Origin: Acidobacteriaceae bacterium | GTDB taxonomy: Bacteria; Acidobacteriota; Terriglobia; Terriglobales; Acidobacteriaceae | DNA length: 64,000 nucleotides | Direction: 5' to 3' | NCBI GenBank assembly: GCA_030037545.1 | Contig: JASHRF010000076.1 | Location: forward strand, 1 to 64,000 | Position numbers and translations under genes: made by a program | In this document: positions 45,125-61,778 of the stretch, piece by piece | Position numbering within the stretch: the stretch's first letter is position 1 | How the letters are laid out: each line of letters begins with the position of its first letter | Notes under the pieces: generated by a model | What the model saw: only the letters and a program-made list of their open reading frames with translations | The model's database searches: none | Told to the model about the DNA's origin: nothing

Positions 45125-45299
45125 GGACAGGGATCGGGGGATCAGGGTCGCGGGACCGGAGTTGTGGTTTGGCCGGGTTTAGAGGAACAAATGTCAAACG
45201 CGGGGGTTTGAAAATGAGGTTCCCGCAATGAGTTTTGCGGACTCAAACCAAATTTGAGCAAGTGAAAACCTTCTCAATGGTAAAATGAAGGGGATGGCG

Positions 45300-46775
45300 A
45301 TGCCCCTGAAAACACTTTTCTTGAACCCACCTTCCTTCGAGAATTTCGATGGCGGAGCGAGCTCACGCTGGCCGGCGACGCGCGAGATTGAGTCCTACTG
45401 GTACCCGGTGTGGTTAACCTACCCGGCGGGGCTGCTGGAGGGATCGCGGCTGCTCGACGCGCCGCCCCACCACGTCTCGGCACAGGAAACAATCGAGATT
45501 TGCAAACAATACGAGTTCCTGGTGCTGTTTACCTCCACGGTCGGCTGGGAGGGCGACCAGAGGCTGGCCGAGGCCATTAAGGCGGCCAATCCGTCGATCA
45601 AGATTGCGTTTGTGGGACCACCGGTGACGACCGCGCCCGATCGCGCGCTCAACGAATGCTGGGCTATGGACTTCATCTGCCGGCGCGAATTTGACTATTC
45701 CGTTGTGGAGTTTGCGCAGGGCAAGCCGCTCAACGAGATTCTCGGCATCAGCTACAAGCTCGACAGCAAGGTTGTTCACAACCCCGACCGGCCACAGGTG
45801 GAAGACCTGGACGCGATGCCGTGGGCGACGAAGATTTACAAGCGCGACCTGGATGTGACGCGCTACAACGTGCCGTTCCTGCTGCATCCGTTCATTGCAC
45901 TCTACTCCACGCGGGGCTGCCCGGCGCAATGCACCTTCTGCCTGTGGCCGCAGACGCTGAGCGGGCACGCGTGGCGCAAACGGTCCAGCGACGACGTGGC
46001 CGCGGAGATGAAATGGGCCAGGGAGAACTTTCCTGATGTGAAAGAGTTCTTCTTTGACGACGACACGTTCAACATCCAGAAGGGACGGACGATTGAGCTT
46101 TGCGAAAAGCTCAAGCCGCTGGGGCTGACGTGGAGTTGCACGTCGCGCGTGACCACCGATCGCGAGACGCTGAAGGCGATGCGCGAGGCGGGATGCCGGC
46201 TGCTGATTGTGGGCTTCGAGTCGGGCGATCCGCAGATTCTAAAGAACATCAAGAAGGGTGCGACCGTGGAGCGAGCCCGGGCGTTTGCGAAGGACTGCCA
46301 CGATCTGGGGCTGACCATCCACGGCGACTTCATCCTGGGCCTGCCGGGCGAGACCAAGGAGTCGATCCGCAATACCATCAACTTTGCCAAGAGCCTGGAC
46401 GTGGAGACGATCCAGGTGTCGATTGCGCACGCGTATCCGGGCACGGAGTTTTTCGAGTTCGCCAAGGCTAACGGGTTCATTGTGAACAAGCAGGCCATGA
46501 GCGACGACGGCGGCCACCAGATGGCGCACATCGAGTATCCGGGGCTGCCGACGGACTACGTGATGGAAATGGTGCACCGCTTCTACGACGAGTACTACTT
46601 CCGGCCCAAGGCGGCATTCCGAGTGGTGTGGAAGGCGATTGTGAATCGCGACATTCCGCGGTTGTACGTGGAGGCCAAGTCATTTCTTAAACTGCGCGCG
46701 CAGCGCAACCGCATGGTGAAACAGGCGCGCAGCCAACAGGGTGAACCGCGGGCGCCTGTAGGCGCGGGGGCATAG
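45300..46775 (+). CDS. hpnJ: Hopanoid-associated radical SAM protein HpnJ
   Basis: 491 aa B12-binding-type radical SAM enzyme. The N-terminus KTLFLNPPSFENFDGGASSR and the long match to HpnJ are distinctive. The cluster is CPAQCTFC (Cys207, 211, 214), followed by KEFFFDDDTFNIQKG and SCTSRVTTDRETLKAM. In Burkholderia HpnJ is needed to form bacteriohopanetetrol cyclitol ether from the glucosamine form. I start at ATG 45300, seven bases after AAGGGG; the track begins at 45285. No hpnI or hpnK is visible in this window. A terminator follows. Confidence 0.93.
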   Translation: MPLKTLFLNPPSFENFDGGASSRWPATREIESYWYPVWLTYPAGLLEGSRLLDAPPHHVSAQETIEICKQYEFLVLFTSTVGWEGDQRLAEAIKAANPSIKIAFVGPPVTTAPDRALNECWAMDFICRREFDYSVVEFAQGKPLNEILGISYKLDSKVVHNPDRPQVEDLDAMPWATKIYKRDLDVTRYNVPFLLHPFIALYSTRGCPAQCTFCLWPQTLSGHAWRKRSSDDVAAEMKWARENFPDVKEFFFDDDTFNIQKGRTIELCEKLKPLGLTWSCTSRVTTDRETLKAMREAGCRLLIVGFESGDPQILKNIKKGATVERARAFAKDCHDLGLTIHGDFILGLPGETKESIRNTINFAKSLDVETIQVSIAHAYPGTEFFEFAKANGFIVNKQAMSDDGGHQMAHIEYPGLPTDYVMEMVHRFYDEYYFRPKAAFRVVWKAIVNRDIPRLYVEAKSFLKLRAQRNRMVKQARSQQGEPRAPVGAGA

Positions 46776-46827: not shown

Positions 46828-46880
46828 CTTGAGCCTCATTTGCTTTATGGTTTCCCACCCTTGCGATAGGGCTGCAAGAA

Positions 46881-46929
46881 GCAGATCCTTCGGCTCTGGT
46901 CGCTGCGCGACCTCCGATCAGGATGACAG
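46881..46929. repeat. Family-2 palindromic repeat (short copy)
   Basis: 49 bp from gcagatccttcggctctgg to gatcaggatgaca with GGTCGCtgcGCGACC as the internal hairpin. The ends match the other family-2 copies; only the hairpin sequence differs. Confidence 0.7.
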
Positions 46930-46987
46930 CAGGGACGGGGCAGGAAAGATTCGGGCAAGTCATCGGTGCCCAAAAGAAAGATCACGG

Positions 46988-47542
46988 ATGGGTCGTCACA
47001 CACTTTCAGTGCGACAATATTTGATTCTGGCGCTGGTGGCGCTGTGCGCGCCGCTGGGCGACTCCTGCCTGGCGCGGGGAATGGCCCACATGCCGCACAT
47101 CCATTTGTCGCACCCTGGGGCGTTGATCGCGGCCGTGTTTACGCCCTGGATTGGAGCGGGGATTGCGCTGCTGATTGCGTTTTTCGCGAGCTACCTGACC
47201 GCCTTGTCCTGGGCGGACCTGACCTTTGTGCTGCCGGCGACGGCGTTCGGGTACGTAATCATTGCGCTGCTGTCGCGCTTCTGGCTGCACGAAGCCGTCT
47301 CGCCGGAACGCTGGGCGGGAATCCTTCTGATTGCAGTCGGGGTGGGATTCGTGGCGCGAGGTCCGTCGCGGACCGAACCGCCGGTAAAGGACCCCGAGCC
47401 GAGTGAACCGGATGTCAAAGAGCCTCCTGCGAAACGGCCGGATGTGAAGGAACCTCCGGCGAAGGATCCCGACGTGAAGGAGCCGGACATCCGGGATCCG
47501 GAAACGGAAGAGCGCAAGAATATGGAGATCGAAGCGCGATGA
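46988..47542 (+). CDS. EamA/SMR-like half transporter with charged repeat tail
   Basis: 184 aa. Four hydrophobic segments (about residues 9-118) follow the DMT half-protein pattern: LILALVALCAPLGDSCLARG, LTALSWADLTFVLPATAFGY, LLSRFWLHEAVSPERWAGIL, LLIAVGVGFVARG. After them comes an unusual hydrophilic tail of about 60 residues with repeats of PDVKEPPAK. The ATG at 46988 removes a repeat-derived extension. Its stop overlaps the next gene's ATG, suggesting the two half-size proteins work as a pair. It lies 210 bp after hpnJ and its terminator. Confidence 0.75.
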   Translation: MGRHTLSVRQYLILALVALCAPLGDSCLARGMAHMPHIHLSHPGALIAAVFTPWIGAGIALLIAFFASYLTALSWADLTFVLPATAFGYVIIALLSRFWLHEAVSPERWAGILLIAVGVGFVARGPSRTEPPVKDPEPSEPDVKEPPAKRPDVKEPPAKDPDVKEPDIRDPETEERKNMEIEAR

Positions 47543-47925
47543 CGACGGGTGTGTGGGCAGCAACGGCGATGATCGCGGCGGTGGTCCTGAGCTCGACGAC
47601 CGGGGAGGTATTGACGGCCGCAGCCATGAAGTCGGTCGGCGATCTGGATGCTATCCGGGCGCGATCAGGCTTGAAAGGCGCGATTGGGGCGGTGCTTCGG
47701 CGCCCGCTGTTTTTTGCCGGAGTGGTTTTTCTGGCCCTGGCATTTTTCTCGTTGCTTTTTGCGCTCAATCACATGAATCTGAGCCTTGCAGGCCCGGCTA
47801 CGGCGTCGCTCACGCTGGTGACGAATGCAATGGCAGGAAAGTTCTTCCTCAAAGAGAACGTTGATCGCCGCCGGTGGGCGGCAGCGCTGCTGGTGTGCGT
47901 GGGAGTATACTTGCTAGCTCATTGA
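47539..47925 (+). CDS. EamA/SMR-like half transporter, second partner
   Basis: 128 aa with four hydrophobic segments: AATAMIAAVVLSSTTGEVLT, PLFFAGVVFLALAFFSLLFA, LSLAGPATASLTLVTNAMAG, RRRWAAALLVCVGVYLLAH. The order AxxMNxSLAGPATASLT and KFFLKENVDRRRWAAALLV resembles the C-terminal half of DMT transporters. It overlaps the preceding half transporter by four bases. ArnE/ArnF-like flippases are a precedent for heterodimeric half proteins. The substrate is unknown; a hopanoid or lipid-linked sugar is an inference from position. Confidence 0.75.
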   Translation: MTTGVWAATAMIAAVVLSSTTGEVLTAAAMKSVGDLDAIRARSGLKGAIGAVLRRPLFFAGVVFLALAFFSLLFALNHMNLSLAGPATASLTLVTNAMAGKFFLKENVDRRRWAAALLVCVGVYLLAH

Positions 47926-52127: not shown

Positions 52128-53402
52128 TCATGGAACGATGGCGGTTTTGATCTCGGTAGAGCGCTTCATCAGCTTTTCGAAGACACGGTTGAGCTCGTAG
52201 AGGTGGGCGTGGCCGGTGATGAAGGCGCCGGCCTGGAAGCGGCCGCTGGCGATAAGTTCGAGCGCTTTGCGGCAGAGGGCCGGGGTGTGGTGGAAAGTGG
52301 CGCGCAGCGTGATGTCGCTGTAGTGGATGCGATTGGTGTCGAGAGTGACGTGGGTGCCGGTAGCGCAGCCGCCGAAGAAGTTGACCGTCCCGCCTTTGCG
52401 GACCAGCTCGACCGCCTCTTGCCACGCCTCGGGAACGCCGACGGCCTCGATAGCGATGTCGACGCCGCGGTCGTTGGGCGTGAGGGCGCGAGTTTCGCGG
52501 ATGGCCTTGCTGATGCTGGAGGTCTGCACCACGTGAGTCGCGCCGAGCTGGCGCGCCGCTTCCGCCTGGCCATCGAGGCGGACCAAGGCAGTGGTTTCAT
52601 AGCCGGCCAGTGCGGCGACGTGAAGAATCATCAGGCCCAGCGGGCCTCCGCCGATTACGGCCACGATATCGCCCTGGCGCGGGTTCGAGTCCTGGAATCC
52701 GTGGACGGCACAAGCCAGCGGCTCGGTGAGAGCGGCGTGCTCCAGGGGGACGTGACCGGGAACGCGGAGAGTGTTCTTGGCGACGATGCGGGCGGGGATG
52801 CGAATGAATTCGGCGTAGGCGCCGTTGTTGAAGAGCAGATCGTCGCAGAGGTTTTCCTGGCCGCGGGCGCAAAAGTAGCACTGGCCGCAGGGAGCGGAAT
52901 TGAGGGCCACGACGCGGTCGCCAGGAGCGAATTCGGTGACGCCGTCGCCAGCCTCGACTACCGTTCCGGCCAACTCGTGGCCAAAGAGCGCAGGCGGCAC
53001 GATCATGCGGGCGTGATAGCCGCGCCGGAAGACTTTGAGATCGGTGCCGCAGGTGAGGGCTGCGCCCACGCTGACGATCAGCTCGCCCGGTGCGGCTTTG
53101 GGAACAGGGACAGATTCGATGCGAATATCTTGACGGCCGTGGAGGACCGCAGCCCTCATGGTGCTGTGCCCGTGGAGGAGAGTTTTCTCGACAGTCTTGC
53201 GGCCCAGGCTGACGGCGGATTCAACCTTTTTGCGGCCTCTGACGACCACCGTCTCGACGGTATCGAGGCCAGCTTCGACGACCGTTTCGACCGTATTGAG
53301 GCCTCCCTCGACGACGTTCTCGACTCTCCTGCGGCCCCCTTCGACTACAGTTTCGACCGTTTTACGGCCGCGGAGGATCGCGTCTTTCATCGTGCTCGCC
53401 AT
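52128..53402 (-). CDS. Zinc-type MDR dehydrogenase with N-terminal 11-residue repeats
   Basis: 424 aa. From about residue 82 it is a medium-chain dehydrogenase: MRAAVLHGRQDIRIESVPVP, catalytic-zinc GTDLKVFRRGYH and GHELAGTVVEAGDGV, structural-zinc CGQCYFCARGQENLC, and the coenzyme fold VAVIGGGPLGLMI. Ahead of it are seven or eight 11-residue units such as RKTVETVVEGG and LNTVETVVEAG (residues 2-89). The ATG at 53402 has TAGGAGGACCCG directly upstream, so the extension is translated. It lies 9 bp after a sister dehydrogenase, between hpnG and hpnC. A role in reducing the ribosylhopane side chain is inferred. Confidence 0.88.
   Translation of the reverse strand: MASTMKDAILRGRKTVETVVEGGRRRVENVVEGGLNTVETVVEAGLDTVETVVVRGRKKVESAVSLGRKTVEKTLLHGHSTMRAAVLHGRQDIRIESVPVPKAAPGELIVSVGAALTCGTDLKVFRRGYHARMIVPPALFGHELAGTVVEAGDGVTEFAPGDRVVALNSAPCGQCYFCARGQENLCDDLLFNNGAYAEFIRIPARIVAKNTLRVPGHVPLEHAALTEPLACAVHGFQDSNPRQGDIVAVIGGGPLGLMILHVAALAGYETTALVRLDGQAEAARQLGATHVVQTSSISKAIRETRALTPNDRGVDIAIEAVGVPEAWQEAVELVRKGGTVNFFGGCATGTHVTLDTNRIHYSDITLRATFHHTPALCRKALELIASGRFQAGAFITGHAHLYELNRVFEKLMKRSTEIKTAIVP
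53136..53399. repeat. 33-bp-period tandem repeat coding for 11-residue units
   Basis: Eight consecutive units of exactly 33 bp encode ASTMKDAILRG, RKTVETVVEGG, RRRVENVVEGG, LNTVETVVEAG, LDTVETVVVRG, RKKVESAVSLG, RKTVEKTLLHG and HSTMRAAVLHG. No insertion or deletion breaks the period. The last unit merges with the start of the dehydrogenase domain. Confidence 0.88.
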
Positions 53403-53411
53403 CGGGTCCTC

Positions 53412-54554
53412 CTACTCTCGGCCGGCTCCAGGCACCGGCTCAATCATAATCTTCATGGACCCCGCTTGGGGATGGGATGCAATTTCAATGGCTTCGACAG
53501 CCTGCTCCAGCGGAAAACGATGGGAAATGAGCTCGGTAAGATCGAAGCCGCTGCGATAACCGCCAAAGACGAGGCCGGTCACTTCGTCGAGGATAGGGAA
53601 AGAAGACGAGTAAGAGCCGAGGAGGGTTTTTTCGTCGACGCAGACGGCGGCGGGATCGAAGGTGGCCTCTCCATGCTGGGTCTGGGCGAAGAGCATAACC
53701 TTGCCACCAGGCCGGGCAGCGTCCATGGCGGTGCGGATGAGGGCATTGCCGCCGACGGCAACGATGACGGCGTCGGCGCCGCGGCCATCAGTGGCGGCCA
53801 GCACGCGCTCGATGACGTTTTCCTGTCCGGCGTGGATGGGCTCGGTGAGGCCGAAGCGCGCGGCGATGGCGTGGCGCTCAGGGAATAAATCGGAGGTGAG
53901 AACGCGGGCCCCGGTCTTGCGCGCCAGTGCGGCGTGCATCAGCCCGATGGGGCCCTGGCCTATGACGAGCACGGTGTCGTCGGGAGCGAGGTTGAGCATC
54001 TTCACGCCTTTGAGCACGGTGTTGACGGGCTCGACGAAGGCGGCCTGCTCGAAGGGGACGTCATCGGGGATGCGGACTACGCCGCGGTTCCGGACCACGA
54101 AATCCATCACGCGAATGTAGTGGGCGAAGCCTCCGCCGGAGGGCTCAAAGCCGGCGGTGACACCGGTCTTCTTGTAGAGCGGGCACTGCGCAGGGGTCTG
54201 CTTGCGGCAGTAGTAGCACTGGCCGCAGGGGACGTGATGGAAGGTCATCACGCGGTTGCCGACTGCGTAGCCGATGACGCCGGCACCGGTTTCCACGATG
54301 ATGCCGGCCATCTCGTGGCCGAAAATGCGCGGCGCGGAGTGGGAGCCGTTGTGGATTTTTTTGAGGTCGGTGCCGCAGATGCCGCAGGTAGCAACTTTGA
54401 TGAGCAGCTCGCCGGGGCCGATGCGGGGCACGGGAACGGTCTCCACGCGCATGTCGTTGACGCCGCGATAAACTACGGCGCGCATGTTTGCGGTTGTCTC
54501 AACGGGAAGGTTAGAGCTTACCTTGCCTTCAGGGTTCGAGGTTTGGGTTGCCAT
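53412..54554 (-). CDS. Zinc-type MDR dehydrogenase (sorbitol-dehydrogenase-like)
   Basis: 380 aa. Zinc-site residues are seen in CGICGTDLKKIHNGSH and GHEMAGIIVETGAGVIGY, the structural zinc cluster in CGQCYYCRKQTPAQC, and the nucleotide fold in VLVIGQGPIGLMHAAL with LTSDLFPERHA. It has a short 23-residue extension and no repeats, unlike its neighbour. ATG 54554 is preceded by ACAGGAAAACGGA; the long track extension reads antisense to hpnG. It lies 25 bp after hpnG. Alcohol/polyol oxidoreductase activity is expected, substrate unproven. Confidence 0.9.
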   Translation of the reverse strand: MATQTSNPEGKVSSNLPVETTANMRAVVYRGVNDMRVETVPVPRIGPGELLIKVATCGICGTDLKKIHNGSHSAPRIFGHEMAGIIVETGAGVIGYAVGNRVMTFHHVPCGQCYYCRKQTPAQCPLYKKTGVTAGFEPSGGGFAHYIRVMDFVVRNRGVVRIPDDVPFEQAAFVEPVNTVLKGVKMLNLAPDDTVLVIGQGPIGLMHAALARKTGARVLTSDLFPERHAIAARFGLTEPIHAGQENVIERVLAATDGRGADAVIVAVGGNALIRTAMDAARPGGKVMLFAQTQHGEATFDPAAVCVDEKTLLGSYSSSFPILDEVTGLVFGGYRSGFDLTELISHRFPLEQAVEAIEIASHPQAGSMKIMIEPVPGAGRE

Positions 54555-54579
54555 TCCGTTTTCCTGTGCGACCTCAGGT

Positions 54580-55254
54580 TCACAAGAGAAAATTGTGAAT
54601 CGACTCCGCAATATTTTGGGAAGCCTGTCTACTATTTTCTCCCATGCGGAGGAGCGCGGGCCAGTAAATAGGCCTGAGAAGCGCATAAAGGGCGAAACGG
54701 GCGGTTCGGAAGCGGCCGCTGGGGTCGAGGAAACGATTGAAATCGGGAAGGCGGTCATCGCGGCCATCGCTGACACCCTTGATGCAGTAGAAGGGGATCT
54801 CGCGCATGGCGGCCAGGCGTGCGACGGCCGCGGCTTCCATGTCGACAAGTGCGGCGTTGTAGGCGGAGGCCAGACGGAGCTTTTCGGCATGGTTAGCGAC
54901 TGTGGGGCTGGTGGCGAGCCACAGATCGCCCGCGCCGGCCTCACAGTGAAAGCGCTCGCCGGTGCGGACATCGATGACGCCGGCGACATTGTGGGCGCTG
55001 CCGGGAGCAATGCCTGGCGTGAGCGCGCCAGCCCAGCCGATGGAGAAAACCAGATCAATCGGCCCACCGTCTTCAATGCCCGCGAAGGCGCACGTAGCAG
55101 CGGTTTGGCCGACACCGGCACAGGCGGCGATCCACTCGTCCTCTTCATTGCGCTGGGCCCAGAAGTGGATGCCGTTGCGGGCGCTGTGCGGCCAGCCGCG
55201 CACGAGCGGCCTGAGCTCGCCGGGCAGTGCAGCAATGATGGCAGTGCGGGTCAT
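54580..55254 (-). CDS. hpnG: Adenosylhopane nucleosidase/phosphorylase HpnG
   Basis: Releases adenine from adenosylhopane, giving (phospho)ribosylhopane. 224 aa nucleoside-phosphorylase fold: IIAALPGELRPLVRGW at the start, IDLVFSIGWAGALTPG and the purine-site region ALVDMEAAAVARLAAM, followed by YCIKGVSDGRDDRLPDFNRF. ATG 55254 overlaps the DUF488 stop by four bases (ATGA), which sets the start and implies coupling. It is followed by two dehydrogenase genes that could act on its product. Confidence 0.92.
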   Translation of the reverse strand: MTRTAIIAALPGELRPLVRGWPHSARNGIHFWAQRNEEDEWIAACAGVGQTAATCAFAGIEDGGPIDLVFSIGWAGALTPGIAPGSAHNVAGVIDVRTGERFHCEAGAGDLWLATSPTVANHAEKLRLASAYNAALVDMEAAAVARLAAMREIPFYCIKGVSDGRDDRLPDFNRFLDPSGRFRTARFALYALLRPIYWPALLRMGENSRQASQNIAESIHNFLL

Positions 55255-55655
55255 GCCTTGGGAGCGTGGGCGAGAAGAATCTGTTTGAGGCGCGAACGAT
55301 GGCAACGGGACTCGTCGGCGCAGAAACAGCCAATGGCGATGGGCATGCGCGCGGCAATTTGGGCGACGAATTCTACGGTCTGGCGGGTGTCGGCGTGGCC
55401 AAGCAGCTCGCGCTCGTAGCGGTCGAAGAATTTTTTGCGATGCGCGGGATTCTCGAAGTCGTAACTCCTGAGCTGGCCGAGGATCTCGGTGCTGGGAGCG
55501 AGCGCGGGCAGCCAGACGTCGAAATAGCCATCGGCGGCCCAGCGGTCTTTGGGGACGCCGCGCGGCGGGCGGCGGGTGGCGCCGATGCGCAGGCCCTGGC
55601 CGGGCCGAGGCGGAGTGCCGATCTGGAAGGTGGTGAGTTTCAGGTCTCGCGGCAT
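55251..55655 (-). CDS. DUF488-family protein, coupled to hpnG
   Basis: 134 aa. DUF488 features are an early GTPPRPGQGLRIGATRRPPR, a middle FDVWLPALAPS and the terminal Cys motif IAIGCFCADESRCHRSRLKQ. ATG 55655 follows GAGGCCCATC. Its TGA overlaps the hpnG ATG. The family is uncharacterised in the main; its Cys pair could be redox or catalytic. Placement inside the hpn operon is the only hint of its job. Confidence 0.85.
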   Translation of the reverse strand: MPRDLKLTTFQIGTPPRPGQGLRIGATRRPPRGVPKDRWAADGYFDVWLPALAPSTEILGQLRSYDFENPAHRKKFFDRYERELLGHADTRQTVEFVAQIAARMPIAIGCFCADESRCHRSRLKQILLAHAPKA

Positions 55656-55766: not shown

Positions 55767-56756
55767 TCACGGCGCGTAGTTGTGGACGCGGAACCAGTCG
55801 ATGGCGGCGCGCATGGCGGGCTCGATGGGCGCGATGCGGAAGCCCAGCTCGTGCTGCGCGCGCGCGCTGGAGGCAAACATTTTTTTGCGGCCCATGCGGA
55901 CCTCTTCGAGCGTGGCGCGGGGCTCACGCCCGCGAATGCGGCCGGTGATCCACTCCTCGAGAAATGCGTAGGTGGCGGCGACGGCGAAAGGAATCTCGAC
56001 GGTGGGCGAGGGGATGGAGGTGAGCGCGGACATCTTGTCGAGGATCTGCTTGAGGGTGAGGTTCTCGCCGCCCAGGATGTAGCGGCGACCGGGCGTGCCC
56101 CGAGTGAGCGCGAGGACGTGGGCACGGGCAACTTCGGCGACGTCGACGAGGTTCAGGCCGGTATCGACATATGCGGGGAATTTGCGGTTAAGGAAATCGA
56201 CGAAGATGCGGCCGGTGGGCGTGGGCTTTACATCGCGTGGGCCGATGGGGGTGGTGGGGTTGAGAATGATGACCTGCTGGCCGGCTTGCGCGGCCTGGAT
56301 CGCTTCCTGCTCGGCGAGAAATTTGGATCGCTTGTAATGGCCGACCATCTCGGCGAGCGAGACCGGCGTGTCTTCATCGCTTACCGCGCCGTCGGTGAAG
56401 AAGTGCATGGTGGCGACGGACGAGGTGTAGACGAAGCGCGGCACGCCGGCCTCGCGCGCCAGGTGCAGCAACTCGCGCGTGCCGTCGACATTGGCGCGGT
56501 ACATGGCGGCGGGATCGGGAATCCACAGGCGGTAATCGGCGGCGACGTGGACCACCGCGTCGCAGTCGGCCAGCGCGGGACTAAGCGACTCCGGATCGGC
56601 GAGATCGCCGGTATGGGTTTCTCCGGTGAGGCCTTCGAGATTTTTCAGGTTGCTGGTCTTGCGGACGAGCAGGCGGAGCTGTGCGCCTTCGGTGGCGAGC
56701 GCCCGCGCGACGTGAAAGCCGACAAATCCGGTGGCGCCGGTGAGAAAGACATTCAT
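55767..56756 (-). CDS. hpnA: Hopanoid-associated sugar epimerase HpnA
   Basis: 329 aa extended SDR. Rossmann motif MNVFLTGATGFVGFHVARAL, DAVVHVAADYRLWIPD, YTSSVATMHFFTDGA and the catalytic region VGHYKRSKFLAEQEA with the YxxxK pair. HpnA is conserved with hopanoid genes but its exact reaction is not settled; it is named a nucleoside-diphosphate-sugar epimerase or dehydratase by similarity. ATG 56756 removes eight residues from the track. It is upstream of the DUF488-hpnG block on the same strand. Confidence 0.9.
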   Translation of the reverse strand: MNVFLTGATGFVGFHVARALATEGAQLRLLVRKTSNLKNLEGLTGETHTGDLADPESLSPALADCDAVVHVAADYRLWIPDPAAMYRANVDGTRELLHLAREAGVPRFVYTSSVATMHFFTDGAVSDEDTPVSLAEMVGHYKRSKFLAEQEAIQAAQAGQQVIILNPTTPIGPRDVKPTPTGRIFVDFLNRKFPAYVDTGLNLVDVAEVARAHVLALTRGTPGRRYILGGENLTLKQILDKMSALTSIPSPTVEIPFAVAATYAFLEEWITGRIRGREPRATLEEVRMGRKKMFASSARAQHELGFRIAPIEPAMRAAIDWFRVHNYAP

Positions 56757-56965
56757 GGTCAAAGGCAGCCAGTTAGCCACGCTGCGCGCGATAGCGAGTT
56801 GGCAGGTTAGCGCGAGCGGGTTGGACTTAATTGTAAGTGGTGGGCGGAGATAGGAGATAGAGGAGCCAGAGCCCCTGGGGACCCGGCGCAGCCGTGGTCA
56901 ATATAGCGGTGCAGTGAGATCAGATTAAGCGAGGTCTCCCGTTGGGGACTTCAGTCTGGCGTCTC

Positions 56966-57394
56966 CTACTCCAGCGCGTCCGGATGCAGGCCGATGTTCT
57001 TTTCACCGGCGGCTTTCTTTTCGTTGTAGGCCTTGACCCAGTCTTCCCAGTGCTTGCCGGCGGCGCGGTCTTTGCCGCTGAATTCGAGGCGCGCGATCTC
57101 GGCGTAGCTGAGCTTGCGCTTGTTCTCCGCCTTGGGCGTGAAGTACTGCACCCAGGAATCGGCGAGCGTGGCGCCGGTATGGCGATTGAAGATGTAGGCT
57201 TCGATCTTCTCGCCGGATTTGGTGGTAATGGTCACGTCGCCGCGGTAGTCGAAGGCTTTTTCGAGGGCGTTGCGGATTTCTTCGTCGCTGGCCAGCTCGG
57301 GAATCCAGCCTTCGAGCTGTTGATGCTCGGTGCCGGGGGCGAGTTCGAGGGCCTCGATTTGTTCGAGCGTGTATTTCTGGACTTCAGCCGTCAT
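56966..57394 (-). CDS. 142-aa protein coupled to hpnH, unknown
   Basis: Soluble, charged protein with a likely small beta-barrel centre (FDYRGDVTITTKSGEKIEAY), then WVQYFTPKAENKRKLSYAEI and LEFSGKDRAAGKHWEDWV. Its ATG overlaps the hpnH stop (ATGA). No family name is recognised with certainty; the middle resembles Sm-like barrels. An accessory function to adenosylhopene formation is possible from gene coupling only. It ends 210 bp before hpnA. Confidence 0.75.
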   Translation of the reverse strand: MTAEVQKYTLEQIEALELAPGTEHQQLEGWIPELASDEEIRNALEKAFDYRGDVTITTKSGEKIEAYIFNRHTGATLADSWVQYFTPKAENKRKLSYAEIARLEFSGKDRAAGKHWEDWVKAYNEKKAAGEKNIGLHPDALE

Positions 57395-58509
57395 GCGCGC
57401 GTTTCCTCGTAGGCGCGTTTGGGCCGTTCGATGGTGACCAGATTGGCGGGGCCGTGTGGGGCGGGCTCGTTGAGCAGATTGCGCGCGTGCTGGTCAGGGT
57501 AGAGGCTGAAACTGCCTTTGACCATGGCCCAGAAGCCCTTGAGCGAGCCGAAGCCGTCGAACACGGCGGTGGGCTCGTAGCCGCAGCTCACCATGCAGTT
57601 AGCGCACTTGGGATTCCCCGAAGCTACGCCGTACTCTTCCCACTTCGTGGTCTCCATCAACTCCTTGAAGGTGTCGGCGTAGCCGTCCTGGAGCAGGTAG
57701 CAGGGACGCTGCCAGCCGAAGATGTTGTAGGCGGGGGAGCCCCACGGCGTGCACTCGTATTTGCGGTCGCCCATCAGAAACTCGAGGAAGAGCGGGGACA
57801 TGTTGAATTTCCAGCTCTTCTTGCGGTTGGACAAAATGGCGCGGAAGAGCCGGCGGACGCGGGCGCGGCCCAGGAAACGGTGCTGGTCGGGCGCTTTCTC
57901 GTAGCTGTAGCCGGGCGAGAGGACGATGCCTTCGACGCCCATGTCCATGACCTCATCGAAGAAGGCGCGGACGGAGTTGGGGTCAGTGCCGTCGAAGAAG
58001 GTGGCGTTGGTGGTGACGCGGAAGCCGCGTTTCACCGCCTCCTTGATGCCCTCGACGGCAATTTCGTAACCGCCCTCACGGCAGACGGAGAAATCGTGGT
58101 GCTCGCGCTGGCCGTCGAGGTGCACGGAAAACGTGAGGTACTTGGAGGGGGTGAACTCGGGCAGGCGGCGCTTGAGTTCGAGCGCGTTGGTGCACAGGTA
58201 GATGTACTTTTTGCGCGCGATAAGGCCGTTGACGATTTCGACGATCTGCGGGTGCAGCAGGGGCTCGCCACCGGGGATGGAGACCATGGGCGCGCCGCAT
58301 TCTTCCACGGCGGCGAAGCATTCCGCCGGCGTGAGCTGCTTCTTGAGAATGTGCGGCGGGTACTGCACTTTGCCGCAGCCGGCGCAGGCCAGGTTGCAGC
58401 GGAAGAGCGGCTCCAGCATGAGAACGAGCGGGTAGCGCTTTTCGCCCGTGAGACGCTTCTTGAGCACGTAGGTTGCAACCGTACCCATCTGGGAGATTGG
58501 AACTGCCAT
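57391..58509 (-). CDS. hpnH: Adenosylhopene transferase HpnH (radical SAM)
   Basis: Adds 5'-deoxyadenosyl to diploptene, the first step of extended hopanoids. 372 aa. The radical SAM cluster is CNLACAGC (Cys38, 42, 45), followed by GGEPLLHPQIVEIV, and a Cys-rich C-terminal segment CANCMVSCGYEPTAVFDGFG. ATG 58509 follows GGGGAAATCGCTG. It is 104 bp downstream of shc. The high resemblance to HpnH leaves little doubt. Confidence 0.96.
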   Translation of the reverse strand: MAVPISQMGTVATYVLKKRLTGEKRYPLVLMLEPLFRCNLACAGCGKVQYPPHILKKQLTPAECFAAVEECGAPMVSIPGGEPLLHPQIVEIVNGLIARKKYIYLCTNALELKRRLPEFTPSKYLTFSVHLDGQREHHDFSVCREGGYEIAVEGIKEAVKRGFRVTTNATFFDGTDPNSVRAFFDEVMDMGVEGIVLSPGYSYEKAPDQHRFLGRARVRRLFRAILSNRKKSWKFNMSPLFLEFLMGDRKYECTPWGSPAYNIFGWQRPCYLLQDGYADTFKELMETTKWEEYGVASGNPKCANCMVSCGYEPTAVFDGFGSLKGFWAMVKGSFSLYPDQHARNLLNEPAPHGPANLVTIERPKRAYEETRA

Positions 58510-58613: not shown

Positions 58614-60632
58614 CTAAAAGCTGGAAGCTGCTTTTCCGTCCATGGCCCGCTTGTAGCCGGTGAGGGCCAGAAGCGGGAAATATTGGCGGTACATGGTGTA
58701 GGCCAGATAAAACACTCTGGGGAAGCCAGTTCCAGTGTACAGCGCCTGGTGGTTGACGCCCGAACCCAAGCTTTCGTCCCAACTGCCGTCTTCACGCTGG
58801 CGGGTGAGCAGCCAGCGTACGCCCTTGGCTATGGAGTCGGAGCGGTCGTCGCCGGCGGCCAGCAGGCCAAGCATAGCCCACGCGGTCTGCGAAGGCGTGC
58901 TGGCGCCGATGCCGCGCGTATTCGGGTCGTCGTAGCTGCCGCAGGTCTCGCCCCAGCCTCCGTCGGGGTTCTGCACCATGCGAATCCACTCGGCAGCTTG
59001 CTGGATCTGCGGCTCGTGGCGATCGACACCGATGGCGTCAAGGCCACGCAGCACCAGATAGGTGCCGTAAAGATAATTAACGCCCCAGCGACCGAACCAG
59101 CTCCCATCCGGCTCCTGCTCCTTGAAGATGAATTCGATCGCCTTCTGGACGCGCTTATCGTCGCGCGTATAGCCGTAGGTAGCCAGCATCTCCAGGATTC
59201 TTCCGGTAATGTCCACGGTGGGCGGATCGAGCATGGCGTTATGATCCGCGAAGGGGATGTACTGGAAGATCATCTTGGTGTTGTCTTTATCGAAGCTGCC
59301 CCACCCTCCGTTTTTGCACTGCATAGCCAGCAACCACTCAATGGCGCGCTGGGTGACCTGGTGCTGGTAGCGCTCGCGCGGATTGTCCACCTTGCTGAGC
59401 GCCAACAGCACCTGGCCGGTGTCGTCGGTATCGGGATAAAACTCGTTGTTGAACTCGAAGTACCATCCGCCGGGATCGGATTTGCTCGCTTTCCTAGCCC
59501 AATCGCCGCGGTGACGAACTTCCTTCGACAGAATCCAGTCGGCGGCCTTGACCATGCGGGGATCGTTGCGCGGCACTCCGGCTTCGCCCAGGGCAAAGAC
59601 GGCCTGCGCCGTGTCCCAGACCGGCGAGACGCAGGGCATCATGCGGAAGGTGGGATAGGGAACTTCAACTGTGGGCGGCTGCTCGATGCCCAGCTTCTCA
59701 AACTCATCGCGGGCGCGGATGACCTGCGGATCGTCTTCGGAGTATCCGAGGCAGCGCAGGGCGAGAATGGCGTTGAGCATGGCCGGATAAATGGCGCCTA
59801 GTCCGTCGGTCAGCTCGAAGCGCTCCAGCATCCACTTCTCGGCGCGGCGCAGGGCCAGGCGGCGCAGAGGACGAATGTGAACCGCTTCAAACCAGTGGGT
59901 CATGCGATCGAGGGCCAGGAAAAAATTGCGCCATGAGAAAAGGTGCTTTCGGTCCATGCGCAGGCGCAGGATGGAATTGGCGCGCCCGCCCACGAACAAC
60001 TCGTCGATGCCATGTTCCGCGGGAATCTTCTTGAACGGCTTTTTGGCATAGATGATGGCCAGCGGGACGAGGATCGACCGCGACCAGGATGAGATTTCGT
60101 AGATGTTGAAGTAGAACCAGTTGGGGAAAAGCACGATCTCCGGCGGAATAGCGGGCACGGCATCGTAGTCGTATTGGCCCAGCGAGCAGAGATACATCTT
60201 GGTAAAGGTGTTGCAGGCTATTACACCGCCATTGGCCAGAATCCACTCGCGGCAGATTTGCATGCGCGGATCGTTGGGGGGCACATTCATGAGCTTGGCG
60301 GCGAAGTAGCACTTGACGGAGAGCGAGATGTTGCCTGGTCCGCCGGGATAGAGGCTCCAGCTCCCATCTTCTTTTTGATAGCGCCACATCTCGGCAAGGG
60401 CGCGTTCCAGGCGGCCGGGATCGCCGGATTCAAGGAGCTTGTGCAGGAAGATGTAGTCGGCTTCGAGCATGGAGTCGGCTTCCAGCTCGCCGCACCAGTA
60501 GCCCTCAGGATGCTGCAGAGAGAGAAGAAAGTCGCGGGCCTTTTGGATGGAGGATTCCACATCGGCCATGTCGGCATCGATGCGGCCGAAGCGCGGCGCT
60601 GCGGTGCGTAAGTTTGAATCCGGCGAAATCAT
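58614..60632 (-). CDS. shc: Squalene-hopene cyclase
   Basis: Cyclises squalene to hopene/hopanol at the membrane. 672 aa, normal for the family. The acid motif DxDD is DTDD at residues 401-404 in NEFYPDTDDTGQVLLA. Several QW repeats are visible: QHPEGYWCGELEADSMLEAD, QKEDGSWSLYPGG, QCKNGGWGSFDKDNTK, QEPDGSWFGRWGVNYLYGT, QNPDGGWGETCGSY and QREDGSWDESLGSG. The start ATG 60632 has GGAGGG ten bases upstream. It is the first hpn gene after ispH on the same strand. Also called hpnF. Confidence 0.97.
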   Translation of the reverse strand: MISPDSNLRTAAPRFGRIDADMADVESSIQKARDFLLSLQHPEGYWCGELEADSMLEADYIFLHKLLESGDPGRLERALAEMWRYQKEDGSWSLYPGGPGNISLSVKCYFAAKLMNVPPNDPRMQICREWILANGGVIACNTFTKMYLCSLGQYDYDAVPAIPPEIVLFPNWFYFNIYEISSWSRSILVPLAIIYAKKPFKKIPAEHGIDELFVGGRANSILRLRMDRKHLFSWRNFFLALDRMTHWFEAVHIRPLRRLALRRAEKWMLERFELTDGLGAIYPAMLNAILALRCLGYSEDDPQVIRARDEFEKLGIEQPPTVEVPYPTFRMMPCVSPVWDTAQAVFALGEAGVPRNDPRMVKAADWILSKEVRHRGDWARKASKSDPGGWYFEFNNEFYPDTDDTGQVLLALSKVDNPRERYQHQVTQRAIEWLLAMQCKNGGWGSFDKDNTKMIFQYIPFADHNAMLDPPTVDITGRILEMLATYGYTRDDKRVQKAIEFIFKEQEPDGSWFGRWGVNYLYGTYLVLRGLDAIGVDRHEPQIQQAAEWIRMVQNPDGGWGETCGSYDDPNTRGIGASTPSQTAWAMLGLLAAGDDRSDSIAKGVRWLLTRQREDGSWDESLGSGVNHQALYTGTGFPRVFYLAYTMYRQYFPLLALTGYKRAMDGKAASSF

Positions 60633-60749: not shown

Positions 60750-61778
60750 TTAGCGAACTGGCAAAGGCTCAGCACCGTTTGCGCTGCCGATCGCCTGCAC
60801 GATCTCAGGCGGCAGGCCGAAGCGCACGTTCTCCGGCATCACTTCCACTTCTTCGACGTTGGCGAAGCCGTTTTGGCGCAGATAATTCACGACATCCTCG
60901 ACCAGCACTTCGGGAGCCGAAGCGCCGGCGGTTACGGCAATATTTTCAACTCCTTCGAGCCAGGTGGGGGATATGGCGCGAGAGTTATCGATGAGATACC
61001 CAAGGGTTCCAAGGTTGCGCGAAACCTCGACCAGGCGATTGGAGTTGGAGCTGTTTGTAGATCCGACCACTAGCACCAGGTCGGCCTTGTGGGCCACGTT
61101 GCGCACGGCCACCTGGCGATTCTCGGTGGCGTAGCAAATGTCCTGCGAGTGGGGGCCGACGATATTGGGAAACTTAATTTTGAGGGCATGAATGATGTCA
61201 CGCGCCTCATCGAGCGAGAGCGTGGTCTGGGTGAGATAGGCCACGCGGTCGGGGTCGGGAACCTGGAGGGCCTCGACTTCGGCCACGTTGGAGACAACCT
61301 GCGTGACTTCAGGAGCTTCGCCCAGTGTGCCTTCGATCTCGTCGTGGTCGCGATGGCCGATGAGCACCAGCGAATAGCCCTGGCGCGCGAATTTGACCGC
61401 CTCAATGTGAACTTTGGTGACCAGGGGGCAGGTGGCGTCAATCACCTTGAGACGCCTGGCTTTACTAAACTCGCGGACGGCCGGCGAAACGCCGTGCGCG
61501 GAGTAGATGACGCGCTGGCCCTCGGGAACTTCTTCGATCTCGTGGACGAAGATAGCGCCTTTTTCGGCCAACTCATTGACCACGTAGCGGTTGTGCACAA
61601 TTTCGCGGCGGACGTAGATGGGCGCACCGAAGGTTTCGAGGGCGATGCGAACCACATCGATGGCGCGCACCACGCCCGCGCAAAAGCCGCGGGGCTTGAG
61701 TAGAAGGACTGATTTGTGGGTAGAGCAAGCCCCTGGGGTCGGGCGGCTAGCCGTGGGCTCTAAGGCGGTAGTGGTCAC
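60750..61778 (-). CDS. ispH: 4-hydroxy-3-methylbut-2-enyl diphosphate reductase
   Basis: Last step of the MEP pathway, producing IPP and DMAPP with a 4Fe-4S enzyme. 342 aa. Cluster cysteines are in KPRGFCAGVVRAI, IDATCPLVTKVH and QDICYATENRQ, and substrate-binding residues in VVGSTNSSNSNRLVEV. The start is GTG 61776-61778; no ribosome site is seen, but a TATACT lies seven bases upstream. It is placed directly before shc, linking precursor supply to hopanoid synthesis. Confidence 0.96.
   Translation of the reverse strand: MTTTALEPTASRPTPGACSTHKSVLLLKPRGFCAGVVRAIDVVRIALETFGAPIYVRREIVHNRYVVNELAEKGAIFVHEIEEVPEGQRVIYSAHGVSPAVREFSKARRLKVIDATCPLVTKVHIEAVKFARQGYSLVLIGHRDHDEIEGTLGEAPEVTQVVSNVAEVEALQVPDPDRVAYLTQTTLSLDEARDIIHALKIKFPNIVGPHSQDICYATENRQVAVRNVAHKADLVLVVGSTNSSNSNRLVEVSRNLGTLGYLIDNSRAISPTWLEGVENIAVTAGASAPEVLVEDVVNYLRQNGFANVEEVEVMPENVRFGLPPEIVQAIGSANGAEPLPVR

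Follow-up and report, generated by a model that had tools for sequence, protein, structure and literature searches.

A pair of zinc-dependent MDR dehydrogenases following hpnG as candidates for redox steps in hopanoid side-chain synthesis of Acidobacteriota

We find that the hopanoid operon of an Acidobacteriaceae bacterium carries, directly after hpnG, two adjacent genes for zinc-dependent MDR dehydrogenases, here called MDR2 and MDR1, and we consider it probable, at roughly 80%, that the encoded enzymes have a redox role in synthesis of the hopanoid side chain. In the established pathway HpnH joins a 5'-deoxyadenosyl group to hopene, whereupon HpnG removes adenine to give ribosylhopane; formation of bacteriohopanetetrol (BHT) then requires that the ribose unit be reduced at its C-1 aldehyde. 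A preliminary description of this DNA had stated that no gene is firmly assigned to that reduction, in agreement with a paper of 2025 according to which the enzyme forming BHT from ribosylhopane is still not established (PMC12583986). As cited in that paper, extracts of Methylobacterium organophilum convert ribosylhopane into BHT, the reaction proposed here, with the enzyme never having been assigned (Bodlenner et al. 2015), and HpnJ acts downstream of BHT (Schmerk et al. 2015). The window, by which we mean the whole analysed stretch of 64,000 nucleotides, encodes this radical SAM enzyme (hpnJ, 45285–46775, plus strand; TIGR03471, 747 bits, over the cut-off), and tetrafunctionalised hopanoids have been measured in these bacteria (PMC5462960), so that BHT is expected here and such a reductase should exist. 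MDR2 and MDR1 would together constitute a two-enzyme redox module of side-chain synthesis placed directly after HpnG.

The operon and its two dehydrogenase genes

On the minus strand, from 61778 to 48304, the gene order is ispH-shc-hpnH-142-residue protein-hpnA-DUF488-hpnG-MDR2-MDR1-hpnC-hpnD-hpnE. The upstream genes are ispH (60750–61778; PF02401), shc for squalene-hopene cyclase (58614–60632; PF13243/PF13249) and hpnH for adenosylhopane synthase (57391–58509; TIGR03470, 538 bits), followed by a gene (56966–57394) for a 142-residue protein without an assigned function, which had no match in Pfam or NCBIfam, occupies the same place in relatives and is probably ug3 of a survey published in 2017 (PMC5462960). 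Then come hpnA, encoding an SDR-type hopanoid-associated epimerase/reductase (55767–56780; TIGR03466, 464 bits, over the cut-off), and a gene for a DUF488 protein (55251–55655; PF22751) that overlaps hpnG by 4 bp and was not detected between hpnA and hpnG in the sister genome L090. For hpnG itself (55254–54580) the best family was TIGR03468 with 86 bits (E 2e-24); the curated cut-off is 187 bits, which the hpnG of no class genome reached, and the assignment therefore leans on the best family match together with the conserved operon position. MDR2 (54554–53412) encodes 380 residues, with the conserved core starting from 54488, and MDR1 (53402–52128) encodes 424 residues, with the catalytic core starting from residue 81. 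The downstream genes, also on the minus strand, are hpnC (52012–51038; TIGR03464, over the cut-off), hpnD (50819–49818; best match TIGR03465 with 235 bits, below the cut-off of 279) and hpnE (49752–48304; TIGR03467, over the cut-off).

The gaps of 25 bp and 9 bp given in the preliminary description were recovered, with a correction as to their position. Both precede an MDR gene, lying between hpnG and MDR2 and between MDR2 and MDR1, respectively, so that they do not flank the pair, and the distance from MDR1 to hpnC is 115 bp. The ATG of MDR1 is directly preceded by a GGAGGA-like ribosome-binding site.

Part of this arrangement was already published in 2017: hpnC is preceded, in subdivisions 1 and 3 of the Acidobacteria, by a gene for a zinc alcohol dehydrogenase (ug2), and hpnG is followed by a gene for which no identity or role was given (ug1) (Sinninghe Damste et al. 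2017, PMC5462960). By position, ug2 is MDR1 and, as we infer, ug1 is MDR2. New in the present analysis are the close link between MDR2 and hpnG, the different cofactor types of the two enzymes, the pairing across the phylum, the two-clade history, the natural losses and the correction concerning Chloracidobacterium-like genomes.

The N-terminus of MDR1 in the window, noted before as apparently membrane-binding, is indeed unusual, as residues 4–80 consist of seven extra 11-residue (33-bp) units (53393–53163, minus strand; TRF period 33), with the enzyme's own first strand (TMRAAVLHGRQ) forming an eighth. Unit 1 and unit 8 share 76% DNA identity, and the eight units are on average 55% identical to one another in DNA, compared to 33% in control segments. 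The repeat segment, which was modelled at low confidence, is strongly amphipathic as an 11/3 helix, having a hydrophobic moment of 0.42 (mean 0.13 and maximum 0.38 in 5000 shuffles). No other MDR1 orthologue read has the repeats, not even that from sister genome G091 (88% identity), and their pattern suggests that they arose in this lineage by in-frame tandem expansion. The repeats may bind membranes, but membrane anchoring as a trait of the MDR1 family was rejected, because a feature confined to this genome cannot explain a shared function.

Linkage and co-inheritance with hopanoid genes

The survey of 151 genomes of the class gave 113 with MDR2, 115 with MDR1, 121 with HpnH and 123 with SHC. 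MDR1 and HpnH occurred together in 114 genomes and were both missing from 29, with HpnH alone in seven and MDR1 alone in one (Fisher p 2e-23, uncorrected for kinship of the genomes). Four of the eight mismatches fell at contig ends (G009, G032, G146 and G113) and the other four (G012, G020, G064 and G084) belong to a single family, where HpnH-HpnA is present and an operonic hpnG is absent. The distance between MDR2 and hpnG was at most 500 bp in 110 of 113 class genomes, the three exceptions having MDR2 590 bp away, 804 bp away or on a different contig. MDR2 and MDR1 were equally close to each other in 86 of 112. The linkage is retained in at least ten families, and these counts across the class show that the order hpnG-MDR2-MDR1 is not due to chance.

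Three natural rearrangements further distinguish the two genes. Most members of family f1 have a split operon, with hpnG-MDR2 kept together and MDR1 beside hpnC; two f12 genomes have hpnG-MDR2-MDR1 as an isolated trio, with no squalene gene, shc, hpnH or other hpn gene detected in the surrounding 20 kb; and family f7 has kept hpnA-hpnG-MDR1-hpnC and lost MDR2 (as read at the locus in G006, with G015 also giving no MDR2 match). MDR2 thus tracks hpnG, with MDR1 being the member that can be retained alone, and the tie of MDR1 to hpnG is the looser of the two. The 2017 survey tied ug2 to the squalene genes, whereas we find the pair tied to hpnG. If the dehydrogenases served the squalene branch hpnC-hpnD-hpnE, as hinted for ug2 in that survey (PMC5462960), it would fit that MDR1 adjoins hpnC in most genomes and remains with it in split operons; nonetheless, we regard such a role as very improbable, because there is no missing redox step from farnesyl diphosphate to hopene, the search for squalene genes next to the f12 trio gave none, and MDR2 follows hpnG.

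In the wider survey of 247 Acidobacteriota genomes, with MDR1 identified by profile at E up to 1e-70, MDR1 was found in 67 and HpnH in 68. As counted from two lists, the genomes outside of the class comprised 30 with both, eight with HpnH only, eight with MDR1 only and 171 with neither; among those with MDR1 only, the gene of G246 is really of the MDR2 clade and G240 has shc. At the level of families, MDR1 and HpnH overlapped in seven, compared to about 2–3 expected (p 0.001–0.003, with families taken as independent). The link of the pair to hopanoid side-chain genes claimed in the preliminary description, which had pointed to co-occurrence in Acidobacteriota as a means of checking it, is thereby upheld by both linkage and presence/absence profiles, with the association being strong in the class and weaker but persisting throughout the phylum.

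Outside of the class, MDR and hpn genes were mostly unlinked, and MDR1-MDR2 adjacency was seen in several families there as well. MDR1 was absent from eight HpnH-positive genomes in eight families, and it was kept in six genomes without shc. Inspection by eye of the open reading frames beside hpnH in the MDR1-lacking genomes gave no recognisable alternative reductase. With eight such genomes, the pair is probably not a universal ribosylhopane reductase; the earlier proposal, that it could perform ribosylhopane reduction or a related redox step on the side chain, keeps its link to the side chain, by linkage and co-inheritance, and would probably not apply universally.

Could the pair instead be a redox module for polyols or sugar alcohols in general, which the hopanoid operon has taken up and in which it plays no specific role? 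Some genomes lacking shc or HpnH carry it (G332, G214, G320, G340 and G293), others have it away from hpn genes, and comparison of the neighbours of pairs outside hpn loci gave no consistent partner. We find this improbable, however, given the near-perfect co-inheritance within the class, the linkage throughout at least ten families and the isolated trio with hpnG.

A tree of 101 MDR proteins resolved an MDR1 clade (support 100/100) and an MDR2 clade (100/98) with similar inner groupings, so the pair appears to be older than its placement in the operon. Three f41 genomes have a gene for the FMO antenna protein together with unlinked genes of both MDR clades, and since we take an FMO gene within Acidobacteriota to mark Chloracidobacterium, we regard these genomes as Chloracidobacterium-like. 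In the 2017 survey ug2 was absent from C. thermophilum, which makes BHT (PMC5462960), whereas the FMO-bearing genomes found here carry genes of the MDR1 as well as the MDR2 clade.

Zinc ligands, cofactor pockets and relatives

Both proteins encoded in the window have ADH_N (PF08240) and ADH_zinc_N (PF00107) domains, a GxGxxG Rossmann motif, the catalytic zinc ligands Cys, His, Glu and Glu and all four Cys of the structural zinc, so that their earlier identification as zinc MDR enzymes is well founded. The zinc ligands are fully conserved in MDR2 of the class, and two MDR1 proteins of the class (family f6; L068 and L070) have Asp in place of the catalytic Cys. The structural models reached a pLDDT of 93.9 for MDR2 and above 90 across most of the core for MDR1.

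According to the usual rule for MDR enzymes, Asp at the end of strand β2 signifies NAD(H), and a non-acidic residue followed by a basic one signifies NADP(H). At this position Asp was found in 65 of 65 MDR2 sequences of the class, and Val, Gly or Ala followed by Lys or Arg in 66 of 66 MDR1 sequences, both sets containing repeat fetches of some loci. The cofactor types predicted from these residues, NADP(H) for MDR1 and NAD(H) for MDR2, are without exception in the class. Outside of it the split holds in most groups, including the Chloracidobacterium-like genomes, but fails in the f56/f54/f35 branch and in some f38 MDR1 sequences, with the f56 branch having acidic cofactor residues in MDR1 and MDR2 alike.

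The closest solved relatives with regard to both sequence and fold were polyol, ketose (1e3j), threonine, sorbitol and butanediol dehydrogenases, at 25–32% identity, and the fold search gave generic polyol/alcohol dehydrogenases only, with no hint of a substrate. The nearest, NADP(H)-dependent ketose reductase/sorbitol dehydrogenase 1e3j and the uncharacterised MDR 4ej6, are zinc MDR proteins like MDR1 and MDR2 and about 28–32% identical to them, but the known substrates are soluble sugars, as opposed to the lipid proposed here. These nearest solved relatives act mainly on secondary alcohols, not on aldoses. Although L-threonine 3-dehydrogenase (TIGR00692) was one of the best-scoring families for MDR1 and MDR2 alike, this identity was rejected, as the scores were 160 and 164 bits compared to a cut-off of 458 and the tree separates both MDRs from Tdh; a separate protein in this genome groups with E. 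coli Tdh (100/100). All other NCBIfam equivalogs were also far under their cut-offs for both proteins.

Candidate steps on the side chain

As to substrate, direction and division of labour, we infer the following. MDR1, with its NADPH-type pocket, would reduce open-chain ribosylhopane to BHT, and MDR2, with its NAD-type pocket, would work together with MDR1 on that chain, its most likely reaction being the oxidation of a secondary hydroxyl or the same step in reverse. We place MDR1 first, as a plausible if tentative candidate for the reductase, because its pocket is of the NADPH type and because f7 has retained it.

One reductase would suffice for BHT, which leaves the second enzyme without explanation. 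The preference of the relatives for secondary alcohols and the eight HpnH-positive genomes without MDR1 also count against MDR1 as the reductase, as do its presence in the six genomes lacking shc, its looser tie to hpnG and the acidic cofactor residues of both proteins in the f56 branch.

The main and serious rival to MDR1 as the BHT-forming enzyme is HpnA, the SDR protein of the same operon, with MDR1 and MDR2 then tailoring the side chain at a later stage, for example by oxidising and re-reducing a secondary hydroxyl. The substrate preference of the MDR relatives would agree with such tailoring, hpnA adjoins hpnH/hpnG in several MDR1-lacking genomes (G176, G224, G245 and G360), and HpnA has been proposed for BHT formation (PMC5462960). 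We nevertheless consider this somewhat doubtful, because the surroundings of hpnH in G199, G208, G344 and G353 yielded no HpnA, and because hpnA is non-essential for BHT in Burkholderia cenocepacia and missing from BHT-making Rhodopseudomonas, according to work cited in the same survey (PMC5462960).

MDR2 could also itself form BHT using NADH, with MDR1 performing a later or parallel step, as it is MDR2 that is tied to hpnG and as the HpnH-positive families f36, f57 and f65 outside of the class contain a gene of the MDR2 clade but lack MDR1. This is unlikely in our view, because an NAD-type pocket suits oxidation better and f7 keeps hpnG-MDR1-hpnC without MDR2.

Finally, the opposite cofactor types would allow MDR2 to oxidise a side-chain hydroxyl with NAD+ and MDR1 to re-reduce it with NADPH on the opposite face, yielding a BHT stereoisomer. 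We hold this to be a long shot. If true, BHT-isomer biomarkers would have a genetic source in Acidobacteriota, and the enzymes would constitute a two-cofactor inversion pair of a kind not described for hopanoids.

As bacterial biomarkers, bacteriohopanetetrol and the fossil compounds derived from it rank among those in widest use. The present analysis gives a shortlist of three testable candidates for the BHT-forming enzyme, MDR1, MDR2 and HpnA, and the opposite cofactor signatures of the two dehydrogenases hint at an extra redox step on the hopanoid side chains of Acidobacteriota.

Variation in MDR1 and a third MDR gene

In the window, seven extra 11-residue amphipathic repeats (53163-53393) appear to have arisen by in-frame expansion of the 33 bp that open the MDR1 core, and they were seen in the window genome alone. 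In the MDR1 proteins of family f6 (L068:12691-13722, L070:9128-10159), the Cys that would bind the catalytic zinc is replaced by Asp. A third MDR gene follows immediately after shc-hpnH in G121 (L244:10884-11915), a genome of family f12, where the hpnG-MDR2-MDR1 trio stands apart; its product clustered with L248, a further MDR encoded in the window genome, and with neither MDR1 nor MDR2. Finally, a public record labelled as a Bordetella parapertussis MAG (CALQCC020000014.1, L105) contains an acidobacterial hopanoid operon, with an MDR1 identical to that of surveyed genome G004, and is probably mislabelled.

HpnH and neighboring genes

Two kinds of HpnH alternate in families f5 and f6 of the class survey, having about 70% versus about 43% identity to the window HpnH. 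Many members of these families encode the closer kind away from the operon, a pattern that looks like replacement. The gene following hpnH in the window (56966-57394) encodes a 142-residue protein without any family match, and was also seen after hpnH in relatives, including outside the class (L242:10826-11224). Between hpnA and hpnG lies a DUF488 gene (55251-55655), overlapping hpnG by 4 bp, that was not detected in this position in the sister genome (L090). Downstream of hpnJ are two small EamA/SMR-like membrane genes (46829-47925), the first having a Pro/Lys/Glu-rich repeat tail (VKEPPAKDPD...); at L228 and L240, hpnJ and two such genes are separated by a gene for an HpnK-like deacetylase (a TIGR03473 match in L240).

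Operons lacking hpnG

In family f38 (L205, L222, L243), the gene order is ispH-hpnA-MDR2-MDR1-hpnD, with hpnG missing from its place. Since only weak matches to HpnG were found elsewhere in these genomes, a different nucleosidase may serve in its stead.
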